DNA of 42,442 nucleotides from the NCBI GenBank assembly GCA_028820845.1, contig JAPPII010000040.1, positions 7,647-50,088 of the forward strand, written 5' to 3'. Position numbers and translations under genes: made by a program. The notes below the pieces were generated by a model. It was not told where the DNA came from and did not search any database. It saw nothing but the letters and a program-made list of their open reading frames with translations. Each line of letters begins with the position of its first letter. Position 1 is the stretch's first letter. This DNA comes from Candidatus Poribacteria bacterium. GTDB lineage: Bacteria; Poribacteria; WGA-4E; WGA-3G. Below are positions 17,434 to 40,593 of this stretch, piece after piece.

Positions 17434-18792
17434 ATGAACATTATTCACATTATTTCAGACACATTTCGACGCGACAATCTTGCGATTTTTGGCGGTAAAG
17501 GATACACGCCATCCCTAAATGCCCTCGCGGAGAAATGTGTCGTTTTTGATAAAGCGTACGTTTGTGGCTTTCCGACTGTCCCGATACGAGGTGAACTCGT
17601 GACAGGGCAAGTCAGCATCTGTCGAAGAGGGTGGGAACCGCTCAAACGAGATGTTCCTGTCATCGCTGATGACTTAACGAAAGCTGGTATTGTGAGTATG
17701 ATGATTGCCGATACACCGCATCATATCAACAACGGCTTCTTTTACAATCGTGGGTTTACAGGATGGAAGTGGATTCGCGGGCAAGAAGGCGACTGTTTAG
17801 AGACACAGCCCTACGATTATGAATCGAAGGAAGCACTGCAGTATCGCACGTATACCCGAACACATCCAAATAGGTTACCTGGCGGTCTCGGCAATCATCT
17901 CAGGAATATCTCCTTTCGACAGACCGAAGCAGATACTTTCGTTGCGAAGACTATGCAAACGGCTTGCGACTGGTTGGAGCGTAATCACCAACATGAAAAC
18001 TTCTACCTCATGGTAGACACCTTCGATCCACACGAACCGTGGGATGCTCCAGAATGGTATCTGAGGCGTTTCGATTCAAGTGACTACGATGGACCAGAAC
18101 CGATCTATCCGCCTTACGGTCCCAATCCTATGAACGAACGTGAGACGGAACGTCTCAACGCTCTCTATCGCGCCGAAGCCTCGCTGGTTGACAATTGGAT
18201 TGGGCAGCTCCTACGAAAGATTGACTACATGGGTTTGATGGAAAATACAATGATAATTTTCATGGCAGACCACGGCTTCCTATTGGGTGAACACGGGCTG
18301 CTCGCAAAGAATCTGAGTATGTATGAAGAGGTCATCCATATCCCGCTTCTGGTTTATCACCCGGATGCAGCACCACGCCATACGGAGGCACTCACGAGTA
18401 TCGCCGATATTCCTGCGACTGTTGTTGACTTGTTCGGTGCAGCAGGCGGCGCGCAAGTGGAAGGCAATAGTCTCCTCCCTGCTATCATGGGCGACACCGA
18501 TACGGGGCGTGAATATGCAGTGACGCACGGTGCTTGGGTCGGCGGATGGAGTCCTGATGGGGGGAGTCCACATGGGAGCATTACTGATGGCACTTGGTCT
18601 CTGCTTTTAGAGAATCAGGGCGGCCCGAAGTCTTTGTTCCATTTGCCCTCTGATCCGGAACAGGAGCAGAATCGATTTGAATCGGATACAGGGGAAGCGC
18701 GTCGGCTCTACCAAGCGTTTTTGGAGTTCTTAGCACAACACGGCGCACCTGAAGCGATGGTAGCGGAATTTCAGAGTCGGTGGCTCGAATAA
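17434..18792 (+). CDS. Sulfatase-fold hydrolase with Thr at the formylglycine position
   Basis: 452 residues of the alkaline-phosphatase/sulfatase superfamily. N-terminal metal site around SDTFRRDN (Asp9), nucleophile region GFPTVPIRGELVTG, metal-binding DPHEPWDAP, MADHGFLLGEHG and a C-terminal SDPEQEQN typical of sulfatases. Canonical sulfatases have C/S-x-P-x-R, whose Cys or Ser is converted to formylglycine; here the aligned residue is Thr48 (T-V-P-I-R). A Thr cannot be oxidised by the known maturases, but Thr is the nucleophile in related phosphodiesterases and phosphomutases, so the substrate may be a phosphate ester. No signal peptide is seen. GAGG precedes the ATG. A strong terminator follows. 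Confidence 0.85.
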   Translation: MNIIHIISDTFRRDNLAIFGGKGYTPSLNALAEKCVVFDKAYVCGFPTVPIRGELVTGQVSICRRGWEPLKRDVPVIADDLTKAGIVSMMIADTPHHINNGFFYNRGFTGWKWIRGQEGDCLETQPYDYESKEALQYRTYTRTHPNRLPGGLGNHLRNISFRQTEADTFVAKTMQTACDWLERNHQHENFYLMVDTFDPHEPWDAPEWYLRRFDSSDYDGPEPIYPPYGPNPMNERETERLNALYRAEASLVDNWIGQLLRKIDYMGLMENTMIIFMADHGFLLGEHGLLAKNLSMYEEVIHIPLLVYHPDAAPRHTEALTSIADIPATVVDLFGAAGGAQVEGNSLLPAIMGDTDTGREYAVTHGAWVGGWSPDGGSPHGSITDGTWSLLLENQGGPKSLFHLPSDPEQEQNRFESDTGEARRLYQAFLEFLAQHGAPEAMVAEFQSRWLE

Positions 18793-21231: not shown

Positions 21232-21250
21232 TGAACATCTATCTGTGTGA
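21215..21250 (+). pseudogene. DUF5615 toxin, truncated to its first 11 codons
   Basis: ATG at 21215 reads MRVLFDEHLSV and then stops. The opening matches the start of the intact DUF5615 protein at 40733-41059 (MRVLLDENLDWRL). The start overlaps the DUF433 gene, the normal arrangement for such pairs. The remaining ~100 codons are absent; the sequence changes to the tail of the AAA-PD-(D/E)XK gene, whose stop codon (21239-21241) lies inside this remnant. Confidence 0.75.
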
Positions 21251-22846
21251 AGGGACTTCTTGAATGACAGGGATGACATAACTCCGAATTGTTAAGTTGT
21301 CAAAGTAATCGGTTTCTACGCGGGGTTCCGGTTCTTTCCGGTGATCAAAAACGATATAGTATCCCTCTTGCACGTTTTCTATTTTGAGATACGCGGCGAG
21401 TTGCTTTTTCCCAGCCTGATACCGAGTATCGCCTCGCCAAATCTTGGTTTCGACGATGTATTTTCGCTGGTTGTGGGTGATAAGGAGATCCATCTTCCCG
21501 CGCCCAGTTGGTACTTCAAATGACATGATGCCGCCCACTGTCTGGACAAACGAATCCAAATACGTCAGGAGCAGGTGCCTTCCGACGTATTCTTGCGGGG
21601 TTTCAGGGACTTGCAGAATCCTAAAACCTGCGCGGGTAATAAAATCCCGGAAGTTATCTAAGAGCGGTTCCATCTCAATCTGTCCTGCAGGGGTGAGATA
21701 ATTGAGAAATCCGTTGATGTTTTCTTCTGCAAAGTAGTCTCGTTCCAAGCCGTTCACCGCGGGCGTAAATGCCTGCATGATATGATGCAGATAAATCGGA
21801 TTAAGAATTTCACACCTTCCGTCAGGTCCTTCTCCGATAACGCCATAGGTTGCGAGTTCGCTGATGAGTTCATCGTGTAAATTAAAGCGTATGCCTTCCT
21901 CATACGTCATAATCTCCATGAGTATTCTTTCAAAGTGTCGGTTTTTGCGGATGTTCGTTGTTAGATGATCAATGTTGGTGTTTCGTTCACGAAGGAGTCG
22001 GGCGTGTGCCGCTGCAAAATGCTCCATCGTTACCGGCTCGGTTTTGGGAATGTCTAATTCCTCTGTGAGTATCTGCGCGAATCGATTGACGAGGAAGGGT
22101 TGGCCCGCAGTTTGTTTATGGAGGCTTTCAATAACCTCTGGCGCGAAGGCTTGCCCGATTTCATCAGTGTACTGCACGAGAAGTTCTTGCACATGCGCCA
22201 GCGTGAAATTGGACAGATGGAACTCATCTTGGATATTGAAGGGCGAGATGGATCGGTCGTAACTCAGTTGTGTGATGCTTTTAACCCCGATGATACCGAT
22301 ACTGTGGGGACATCGGGGCTTACCCGGCAGGTAGATGTGGCGGAGTGAATGCAGAAAACCTTTTACTGCAGCTCCGGGAATGCCATCAAACTCATCTATG
22401 ACAAGGACAACCTTCTGATTGTCAAGAAAATCAGCGAGGCGTTCAAAGAACTCCCTCATTTCAACGTGATCGGTTATCCTTGCGTTCTCTAAAAATTGGT
22501 TTAGCGTCTCAGTCGGCGTACTTCCGCGTTTTCGGAAAACACCTTCAATTTCTTTGCGAATTTCTCTATAAAAGGAGGCATAAAAAGCAGAAGGAGCAAA
22601 GTCTTCATACTCTTCAAAATTCAGTCGGATTGGGAAGTAGGTGGGTTCTACAATTTCTGTAGTGGCGGTTGCGAGTGTGTCCAGGGCGCATTGAAAAAAG
22701 GTCGTTTTTCCCGACTGGCGAGGTGCAAAAAGAACGATATATCGTCCCTCTTTGACGCGGTTGCTGAAATCTGCAGTTTCTTCGGTACGGCTGACAATGT
22801 AATTCTCTTGTGCATTGACGGGGCCTCGGGTTCCAAAATTTCTCAT
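21239..22846 (-). CDS. AAA-like ATPase with C-terminal PD-(D/E)XK nuclease domain
   Basis: 535 residues. Walker A APRQSGKTT at 41-49 and Walker B KVVLVIDEFDG near 143 define an AAA/STAND-type ATPase module, followed by a winged-helix-like region (about 280-370). The C-terminal 430-510 segment GKMDLLITHNQRKYIVETKIWRG gives the D...ExK core of a PD-(D/E)XK nuclease. Such proteins are abundant, often mobile, and of uncertain role (defence, recombination or element maintenance). The gene abuts a broken toxin on one side and atpC on the other, on the same strand as the atp operon. The catalytic motifs appear intact. Confidence 0.85.
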   Translation of the reverse strand: MRNFGTRGPVNAQENYIVSRTEETADFSNRVKEGRYIVLFAPRQSGKTTFFQCALDTLATATTEIVEPTYFPIRLNFEEYEDFAPSAFYASFYREIRKEIEGVFRKRGSTPTETLNQFLENARITDHVEMREFFERLADFLDNQKVVLVIDEFDGIPGAAVKGFLHSLRHIYLPGKPRCPHSIGIIGVKSITQLSYDRSISPFNIQDEFHLSNFTLAHVQELLVQYTDEIGQAFAPEVIESLHKQTAGQPFLVNRFAQILTEELDIPKTEPVTMEHFAAAHARLLRERNTNIDHLTTNIRKNRHFERILMEIMTYEEGIRFNLHDELISELATYGVIGEGPDGRCEILNPIYLHHIMQAFTPAVNGLERDYFAEENINGFLNYLTPAGQIEMEPLLDNFRDFITRAGFRILQVPETPQEYVGRHLLLTYLDSFVQTVGGIMSFEVPTGRGKMDLLITHNQRKYIVETKIWRGDTRYQAGKKQLAAYLKIENVQEGYYIVFDHRKEPEPRVETDYFDNLTIRSYVIPVIQEVPSHR

Positions 22847-39381: not shown

Positions 39382-40593
39382 TTAATGCCGCGCCGTGCTG
39401 GCATAAAATTCCGAGATGCTTTCAACGCCGCGAAGAAGTGCTTCATCACTCAAGCGAAACGCCTCGCGTATTTTCAGTTTTTGCTTGTTTTCTATCGAAT
39501 CAAGCAATCGTTGATTTAGTACGACATGGACGGTGTCCGCATTTTCTCGAAATTCCTGCAGTCCCTGTTCTGCTTTTTCGGCGCGACGTTCACCTTCAAA
39601 ATTGAAGGGACACGTCACAACGCCTACTGCTAAAGCCCCTTGGTTTCGAGCGAGCGAGGCAATCAGCGGCGCAGCCCCTGCACCCGTTCCCCCGCCCATA
39701 CCCGCTATAATAAAAACGAGGTCGGCATCTGCAACGATGGAATGAAGTTTCTCGCGATCCTCCTCAGCAGCCTTTTTACCCATCTCTGGATCCGCTCCGC
39801 AATATCCTGGCGTGCTGTTCATACCGATCCGCACAGGTGTTGCGTCATTGTGTTTGTCAAGTGCTTCCTTGACTACGTCCACAGCGTAAAAGTCAACATC
39901 TGTCAAACCTGCTTCAATCATCCATTTGACAGCGTTTCCGCCTGCACCGCCAACACCCACAACCTTGATTTTGTGTCGGAGACGCTTGGATTCTTCACGT
40001 CTATATGACATAGTTCTCCCTCTTTCAGATTCGACACCGAACTCCTTGCGCAGGAGTTCACGGGTCTGTCTTAATTTGGTCTTGATTGTCCCTATCGCCA
40101 ATCCAAGTTCAGCGTGGATCTCTTTGATATTCCACGATTCCAGATAGTATAGCACAGCAACACTGCGTACTTTATCTGGTAGGTGATGCACGACTTCTCT
40201 AACATCTTCGAGAAGTTCTGTTTCTCGGAAACGTGCAACCGCATTCTGATCAATATAATTAGTTAAGTCAGGGTGCGGAATTTCACTTCTCGAATGATGC
40301 CCGGAAGTGTAGTATCTCTTACAAGCGTTGTAAGCGATACGCTGCAACCAGCCACCAAAACTTTCGGTGCGCCGCAGTCCGCCGATATTTTCCCAGACGG
40401 CTCTCCAGATGTCCATGAGGATTTCTTCAGCGTCCCGGCGTTGTCTCGAATTCGCGATAATAACTTTCTCTATGCGCGGACTATAACGCGACATCAGTTC
40501 TGTAAACGCCAACTCATCACCGGCTTGTGTAAGCCGAATGAGGTCTTCATCTGTCAGATTGATGTATGTTAATAGATCGTATCGCATAGGCAT
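39382..40593 (-). CDS. ECF sigma factor fused to an FtsZ GTP-binding domain
   Basis: 403 residues in one open frame. Residues 15-185 are an ECF sigma factor: region 2 (ELMSRYSPRIEKVIIANSRQRRDAEEILMDIWRAVW) and region 4 (LPDKVRSVAVLYYLESWNIKEIHAELGLAIGTIKTKLRQTRELL). From about 208 the chain is FtsZ: T1 loop VVGVGGAGGNAVKWMIEAGL, T3-like YCGADPEMG, tubulin signature GMGGGTGAGAAP (GGGTGAG at 300-306), the PFNFEGERR block, and FRLSDEALLRGVESISEF with the T6-region Asp383. It stops before the T7 loop and lacks the whole FtsZ C-terminal domain. Internal ATG at 40011 (Met195) has GAGGGAG upstream. I know of no described sigma-FtsZ fusion. The start has only a weak GGGA. Confidence 0.85.
   Translation of the reverse strand: MPMRYDLLTYINLTDEDLIRLTQAGDELAFTELMSRYSPRIEKVIIANSRQRRDAEEILMDIWRAVWENIGGLRRTESFGGWLQRIAYNACKRYYTSGHHSRSEIPHPDLTNYIDQNAVARFRETELLEDVREVVHHLPDKVRSVAVLYYLESWNIKEIHAELGLAIGTIKTKLRQTRELLRKEFGVESERGRTMSYRREESKRLRHKIKVVGVGGAGGNAVKWMIEAGLTDVDFYAVDVVKEALDKHNDATPVRIGMNSTPGYCGADPEMGKKAAEEDREKLHSIVADADLVFIIAGMGGGTGAGAAPLIASLARNQGALAVGVVTCPFNFEGERRAEKAEQGLQEFRENADTVHVVLNQRLLDSIENKQKLKIREAFRLSDEALLRGVESISEFYASTARH

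Follow-up and report, generated by a model that had tools for sequence, protein, structure and literature searches.

Formylglycine (FGly) is generally seen as the price of sulfatase chemistry. A Thr nucleophile is known from further members of the same superfamily, such as LtaS and PafA. NPP3 similarly attacks phosphoryl groups with a Thr (PMC6052110), and the Thr of MCR-1, which also acts on phosphoryl groups, is described as nucleophile and acceptor (PMC5216409). According to the 2016 classification, 30 of 59 PF00884 seed proteins carry a Thr, and those with a TXNXE motif were not called sulfatases (PMC5066984). The same SulfAtlas paper reports an Asp in place of the Lys in 87 of 4058 sequences, and states that a ketone would result from Thr, from which formation of FGly had never been shown (PMC5066984). 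Mutation of fGly to Ser is reported to cost ASs and phosphonate monoester hydrolases (PMHs) about tenfold on average (PMC5488252). The EfAS mutant C61S keeps 20–35% of its activity, which its authors credit to an oxidised Ser (PMC12421950), and choline sulfatase is described as dropping about 1000-fold in the C54S mutant and under detection in K102L (PMC5870055). From the K-x-H104 spacing, we infer that this K102 would be the Lys of the GK-x-H motif of FGly sulfatases. No description of a T-x-P-x-R family was found in the literature searched, which lay mostly outside subscription journals; thus, while Thr had been described before in the broad Pfam family, what appears to be new is a T-x-P-x-R family whose site otherwise resembles that of sulfatases and whose nucleophile was swapped at least twice.

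The window considered here is a stretch of 42,442 nucleotides from Candidatus Poribacteria, a sponge-symbiont bacterium. Its gene at 17434..18792 on the forward strand encodes a Thr-type protein of 452 residues, of which residues 2–336 match the PF00884 Sulfatase profile with 125 bits (E 4.5e-36, cut-off 25). This score above the curated cut-off and the fold both place it in the PF00884 superfamily, and it belongs to none of the named NCBIfam subgroups arylsulfatase, choline sulfatase and PehA, since it scores far under the cut-offs of these models. The AlphaFold2 model (mean pLDDT 72.3, pTM 0.82; weak at residues 361–395 and in several loops) retrieved sulfatases and PMHs, including 6hhm (Z 31.1, rmsd 3.3 over 365 residues) and 4uph (Z 29.3, rmsd 3.9 over 378 residues), among the 50 matches listed, which says nothing against families outside these 50. 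The best sequence match among solved structures is the PMH 4upk (E 2.5e-21), and the Cys-bearing family member L218 reaches E 1.4e-22 at best; judged by sequence, no solved structure is close to the T-x-P-x-R family. PADLOC gave no match that would indicate a defence role for the protein. Elsewhere in the window, an unusual ORF (39382–40593, reverse strand) joins sigma-70 regions 2 and 4 to a Tubulin/FtsZ GTPase domain in an apparent fusion, and an AAA ATPase-like protein (21239–22846, reverse strand) lies beside the atp operon, with a homologue in only L032 and L034 among the loci compared.

The initial annotation had pointed to a Thr instead of Cys/Ser at the formylglycine position, which was borne out by alignment to PDB entries as well as by conservation in related loci. 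T48 (codon ACT, 17575..17577; this and all following residues on the forward strand) aligns to Cys in 4upk and to Ser in 5g2v and 7oz8, and lies just ahead of helix 49–57 in the model. T48-V-P-I-R, which ends in R52 (17587..17589), thus stands where FGly sulfatases have C/S-x-P-x-R, and the SulfAtlas S1 nucleophile motif is absent. The protein shares with FGly sulfatases (SulfAtlas S1, PF00884) the fold, the N-terminal Asp metal ligand, the x-P-x-R and the positions of H200 in the D-P-H motif (18031..18033) and of K292 (18307..18309), which we take to be the sulfate/phosphate-contact Lys of the fold; it differs from them by its Thr, by the missing GK-x-H Lys and by an identity of 16–27% to the structural matches listed. 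The Asp/Asp/Asn-or-His metal set of FGly sulfatases is provided by D9 (17458..17460) and D279-H280 (18268..18273). In place of GK-x-H, the protein has D93-T-P-H96 (17710..17721), with D93 or T94 at the Lys in alignments that are one residue apart, and H96 on the motif's His in the alignment to 5g2v. Further downstream lies the family signature R115-G-Q-E118 (17776..17787), in which R115 and E118 are invariant in A1 and A2. The earlier statement that all neighbouring metal-site motifs are intact therefore stood for D9, D279, H280, R52, H200 and K292 and failed for the GK-x-H Lys.

Compared with the other described groups, the Asp/Asp/His ligands are those of PMHs and EfAS (PMC12421950), and the kept ligands would fit the one-metal PMH/sulfatase type. 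PMHs and related phosphodiesterases (S1_0: RlPMH, SpPMH), to which the best sequence match belongs, are reported to combine FGly with a Tyr at the Lys position, versus Thr48 and D93/T94 here (PMC5488252). A Thr at the nucleophile position is found in NPP-type phosphodiesterases, and a Thr nucleophile or acceptor at the metal is described for NPP as well as for MCR/EptA. However, NPP3 and MCR-1 are described as membrane-bound and NPP3 as holding two zincs, whereas the window protein has no signal peptide and carries the sulfatase-type T-x-P-x-R.

Of the 66 related loci compared, four gave no family match, and 61 of the remaining 62 keep the Thr, which indicates that its presence in the window protein is beyond chance. 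L031 is a 98% identical relative. The wider family comprised 190 non-identical proteins, with only identical segments merged and near copies counted separately: 157 have Thr, 33 Cys and none Ser. A clade of Thr-bearing relatives, as envisaged in the initial annotation, hence exists; the Cys in close relatives that would have spoken against it was encountered in a sister branch, the only one in the close set being that of the planctomycetal L085, which is 30% identical to the window protein. Columns 93 (D or S) and 115 (R or H) served as the family filter and are thus conserved by construction. Outside this filter stood the nucleophile and R52, H200, D279, H280 and K292, and these latter five are invariant in all 190 proteins (157/157 in the Thr type). 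D9 is Asp in 155 of the 157 Thr-type proteins, the other two being unaligned there, while H96 and E118 are each kept in 143 and vary in 14.

Such genes are widespread. A match at E 1e-30 or better was found in 83 of 84 Poribacteria genomes. At E 1e-70, profile A2 matched at least 53 of 64 genomes of Latescibacterota (the phylum of L092), at least 29 of 294 of Planctomycetota (that of L085) and at least 20 of 148 of Lokiarchaeota (that of L086), these tallies being lower bounds that include Cys-type members. The genome of the window itself has 45 PF00884 rows, two of which come from already counted genes and one of which, the weak row C18, did not align; the 41 other aligned ORFs divide into 33 with Cys and the following Arg, four with Thr, Arg and the family signature (L028, L113, L114 and L115) and four with Thr and no Arg. 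These last (L007, L023, L118 and L119) form with L257, L262 and L271 from elsewhere a second Thr-type Sulfatase-domain group lacking the following Arg, with motifs such as PTHPAH or ATRPSH and other residues at the Lys292 column. In total, 87 sulfatase-like ORFs lay outside the D/S93 and R/H115 signature (77 with Cys and Arg, nine with Thr and one with Ser, both without Arg). In four genomes of the Planctomycetota phylum (G210, G230, G264 and G325; L236, L237, L238 and L239), a Cys-type and a Thr-type family gene are adjacent on the same strand; the N-terminal part of the L239 Cys copy, including D9, is unreadable in the same frame.

Two trivial origins of the Thr were discarded. C44, four residues upstream, might have been a nucleophile displaced by a slip of frame or alignment, but residue 44 is not conserved among relatives (G 30, E 22, A 15, C 8, S 7 and others in 95 rows). 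A sequencing error was likewise dismissed, codon 48 being ACT, ACC or ACA in the window gene and its 10 orthologues, and a swap to Thr recurring in L215 and L217 from two genomes.

The initial annotation had left the choice between a different, Thr-based chemistry and an inactive sulfatase. The latter would be a non-catalytic relative with a role in ligand binding or in the regulation of a partner, as the loss of both the residue modified in classical sulfatases and the canonical Lys could suggest. We consider it quite improbable. The dN/dS ratio was 0.026–0.065 in six of 10 orthologue comparisons, dS being saturated in the other four, so that recent decay is rejected; the window gene is under strong purifying selection. 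Invariance of R52, H200, D279, H280 and K292 in the Thr type also argues against inactivity, and the retention of catalytic residues across phyla, with Thr-type members in records named Poribacteria, Aerophobetes, Calescamantes, Latescibacterota and Lokiarchaeota, disfavours a dead enzyme. So do the planctomycetal pairs, in which both copies keep the checked residues in three of the four genomes. An active Thr enzyme is thus favoured over an inactive one by conservation and low dN/dS, and also by two points described below, namely that the swap recurred and that no maturase was detected in five genomes.

The Cys-bearing sister branch, here named PCMPAR, comprises rhizobial, Enterococcus, Serratia and Planctomycetota sulfatases. 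It shares the D93/H96/R115/E118 signature and the N-terminal layout of the Thr type, and differs by its Cys nucleophile and by the FGE, anSME, sugar ABC or PTS genes that adjoin some of its members. A tree of 95 rows was computed without the motif columns (189 proteins and the window protein thinned to 87 at 72% identity, plus eight outgroup rows, R52 being required of D93-type rows), on which the nucleophile needs three changes, outgroup counted. The Cys branch (29 rows) falls inside Thr with a support of 100/95, and the Thr row L215 sits deep within the Cys branch; its near-identical counterpart L217 in a second genome reads S-P-T-I-P-M-R. In topology tests on a 39-row set, a single origin of all Thr was rejected (p-AU 1.9e-36), while the grouping of all Thr except L215 passed (p-AU 0.195); on these trees, the family is therefore shown to have swapped Cys and Thr at least twice. 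Because this second grouping was not rejected, no direction is claimed for the swap, despite the nesting of Cys inside Thr. FGE-family matches were obtained in the genomes of both L215 and L217, so loss of FGE does not explain their swap. FGly-type sulfatase-like enzymes presumably gave rise to the family or traded nucleophiles with it.

Maturases were searched in two lists of 30 genomes each. FGE was found in eight genomes of the first (G016, which lacks a family match, and 29 that have one), and anSME above cut-off in 18 of the second, in which G000 takes the place of G016; the window's own genome is among these 18. Among the 29 family-carrying genomes, G557 and G566 have a Cys-type member, the site residue being read in all but G101 and G507. 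The draft genomes G088, G461, G477, G485 and G504 yielded neither an FGE match nor an anSME above cut-off, and their PF00884 genes (2, 1, 1, 1 and 1, respectively) all have Thr at the site, five of the six belonging to the T-x-P-x-R family and one (L257 in G088) to the Arg-less group. In the last four of these genomes, which belong to Asgard phyla, the Thr gene (L246, L245, L244 and L302, respectively) is the only Sulfatase-domain gene found. Such absences are not fully reliable and may partly be draft gaps, since G209, G489, G539 and G557 encode Cys-type genes and equally lack FGE and anSME above cut-off. In the window genome, Thr copies coexist with maturases, since 19 FGE-family matches and one anSME over cut-off were obtained there.

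That Thr48 is oxidised by a radical SAM maturase to a ketone, an analogue of formylglycine, is most improbable. This could be read from the presence of an anSME beside these FGE-family matches in the window genome, and from two genes of the Lokiarchaeal phylum (L282:3930-6726 and L283:5531-8329) that are divergent from an adjoining anSME-class gene (407 and 400 bits, cut-off 349). The neighbours of these two are however alike, so that they may represent a single event; moreover, five Thr-bearing genomes have no detected maturase, and the SulfAtlas paper knew of no FGly made from Thr.

The neighbourhoods of Thr genes are mixed, with sugar oxidoreductases, kinases and corrinoid methyltransferases next to them. 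The commonest of 123 scanned neighbours were two Gfo/Idh/MocA oxidoreductase domains, with five occurrences each, and no phosphate-specific theme emerged from the 25 of 157 families listed and the chosen loci, a point against a phosphate-ester enzyme. A shared operon for the family was not found. A Wzy_C (O-antigen ligase) homologue is encoded upstream of the window gene and is kept in 44 of 51 Poribacteria-titled loci. Four of the seven others start at a contig end or close to it, and no such homologue was seen at L074, L081, L082 or L085–L093, the other loci of this comparison. In the Asgard loci L244 and L245, the Thr gene lies between two corrinoid proteins and next to a URO-D (MtaA/MtbA-like) methyltransferase, and in L246 and L302 it adjoins one corrinoid gene, which suggests a methyl-transfer pathway for these Asgard members. 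A URO-D gene is also found just upstream of the Aerophobetes member L081 and beside L141 of the Poribacteria phylum.

Neighbours also bear on a maturase-free sulfatase, in which Thr48 would take the sulfuryl group of an imported sulfated metabolite and the Thr-sulfate would undergo an unusual hydrolysis. The Cys sisters keep D93, H96, R115 and E118 and lie in some cases near maturase or sulfur genes, and the Thr branch could have retained their substrate class without FGly. Furthermore, Ser mutants of FGly enzymes are reported to keep activity (PMC5488252; EfAS C61S, PMC12421950), and the roughly tenfold loss in the former means that a plain hydroxyl at the site does not, by that account, exclude sulfatase activity; choline sulfatase C54S, about 1000-fold down, stands against this (PMC5870055). 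The missing canonical Lys also weighs against a sulfatase, though the Cys branch lacks it too. By similarity to one query gene per function, with the query-source loci L097, L102, L104 and L107 included and with flank lengths that differ between the groups, a sugar ABC binding protein and both permeases were near five of 33 Cys genes (four of 32 without L107) and none of 157 Thr genes, and FGE near one of 33 and none of 157. An anSME was near two of 157 Thr genes, the ABC ATPase alone near eight of 33 Cys and three of 157 Thr genes, and FGE, anSME or PTS near one or two Cys-branch genes, the only FGE and the only anSME match among Cys genes being the query sources themselves. In view of both sides, we judge it unlikely that the Thr branch is a sulfatase without formylglycine, acting on the same class of substrates as its Cys sisters, and equally unlikely that it works through such a Thr-sulfate. 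If it were a sulfatase, the PCMPAR enzymes may descend from a Thr ancestor, and the FGly state would have been gained or lost repeatedly in one family.

Only eight codons separate the ATG from a stop codon upstream, and the first beta strand begins with residue 2, so that no signal peptide fits. The initial annotation had rightly noted this absence and taken it to support a cytosolic, non-standard role, but the short N-terminus is not peculiar to the Thr form: 20 residues or fewer separate the upstream stop from the start of homology in 107 of 154 Thr-type and 20 of 32 Cys-type family members, and in 37 of 73 other Cys-type ORFs. By analogy with MCR/EptA, Thr48 might instead relay a phosphoryl group or phospho-headgroup to an acceptor other than water; such a transferase would find a parallel in MCR-1, whose Thr serves as nucleophile and acceptor. 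This role is also quite improbable, as the window protein consists throughout of a single sulfatase fold, without an extra membrane domain, according to Pfam and the model, no signal peptide fits, and the neighbourhoods inspected contain no recurring acceptor pathway.

On balance, we favour with slight confidence an active, cytosolic, single-metal hydrolase of the alkaline phosphatase superfamily with an unmodified Thr48 as nucleophile, most likely acting on a phosphodiester or phosphonate. Bound by D9, D279 and H280, the metal would activate the hydroxyl of Thr48, which would attack the phosphodiester or phosphonate ester; a phospho-threonine intermediate would form and would then be hydrolysed by water. 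With Thr48 unmodified, no FGly maturase (FGE or anSME) would be needed. Attack on a phosphoryl group is suggested by analogy with the superfamily Thr enzymes NPP3 and MCR-1, which makes a phosphoester substrate plausible for the window protein. Both branches have the D93/H96/R115/E118 site in common, so that the pocket by itself cannot tell phosphate from sulfate; the GK-x-H Lys is also missing in the Cys relatives. Given that the swap recurred and marks a widespread family, the protein is probably a functional enzyme for phosphate esters, with no need of a maturase, and not a defective sulfatase.

A family that moved at least twice between Cys (FGly) and Thr while the rest of its active site stayed conserved represents a natural experiment on what FGly buys, and the adjacent Cys and Thr copies of Planctomycetota make a direct comparison feasible. 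It may be that not every gene labelled as a sulfatase in sponge symbionts, Planctomycetota, Latescibacterota and Asgard archaea encodes a sulfate-releasing enzyme, and such mislabelled genes would inflate claims on the degradation of sulfated glycans.
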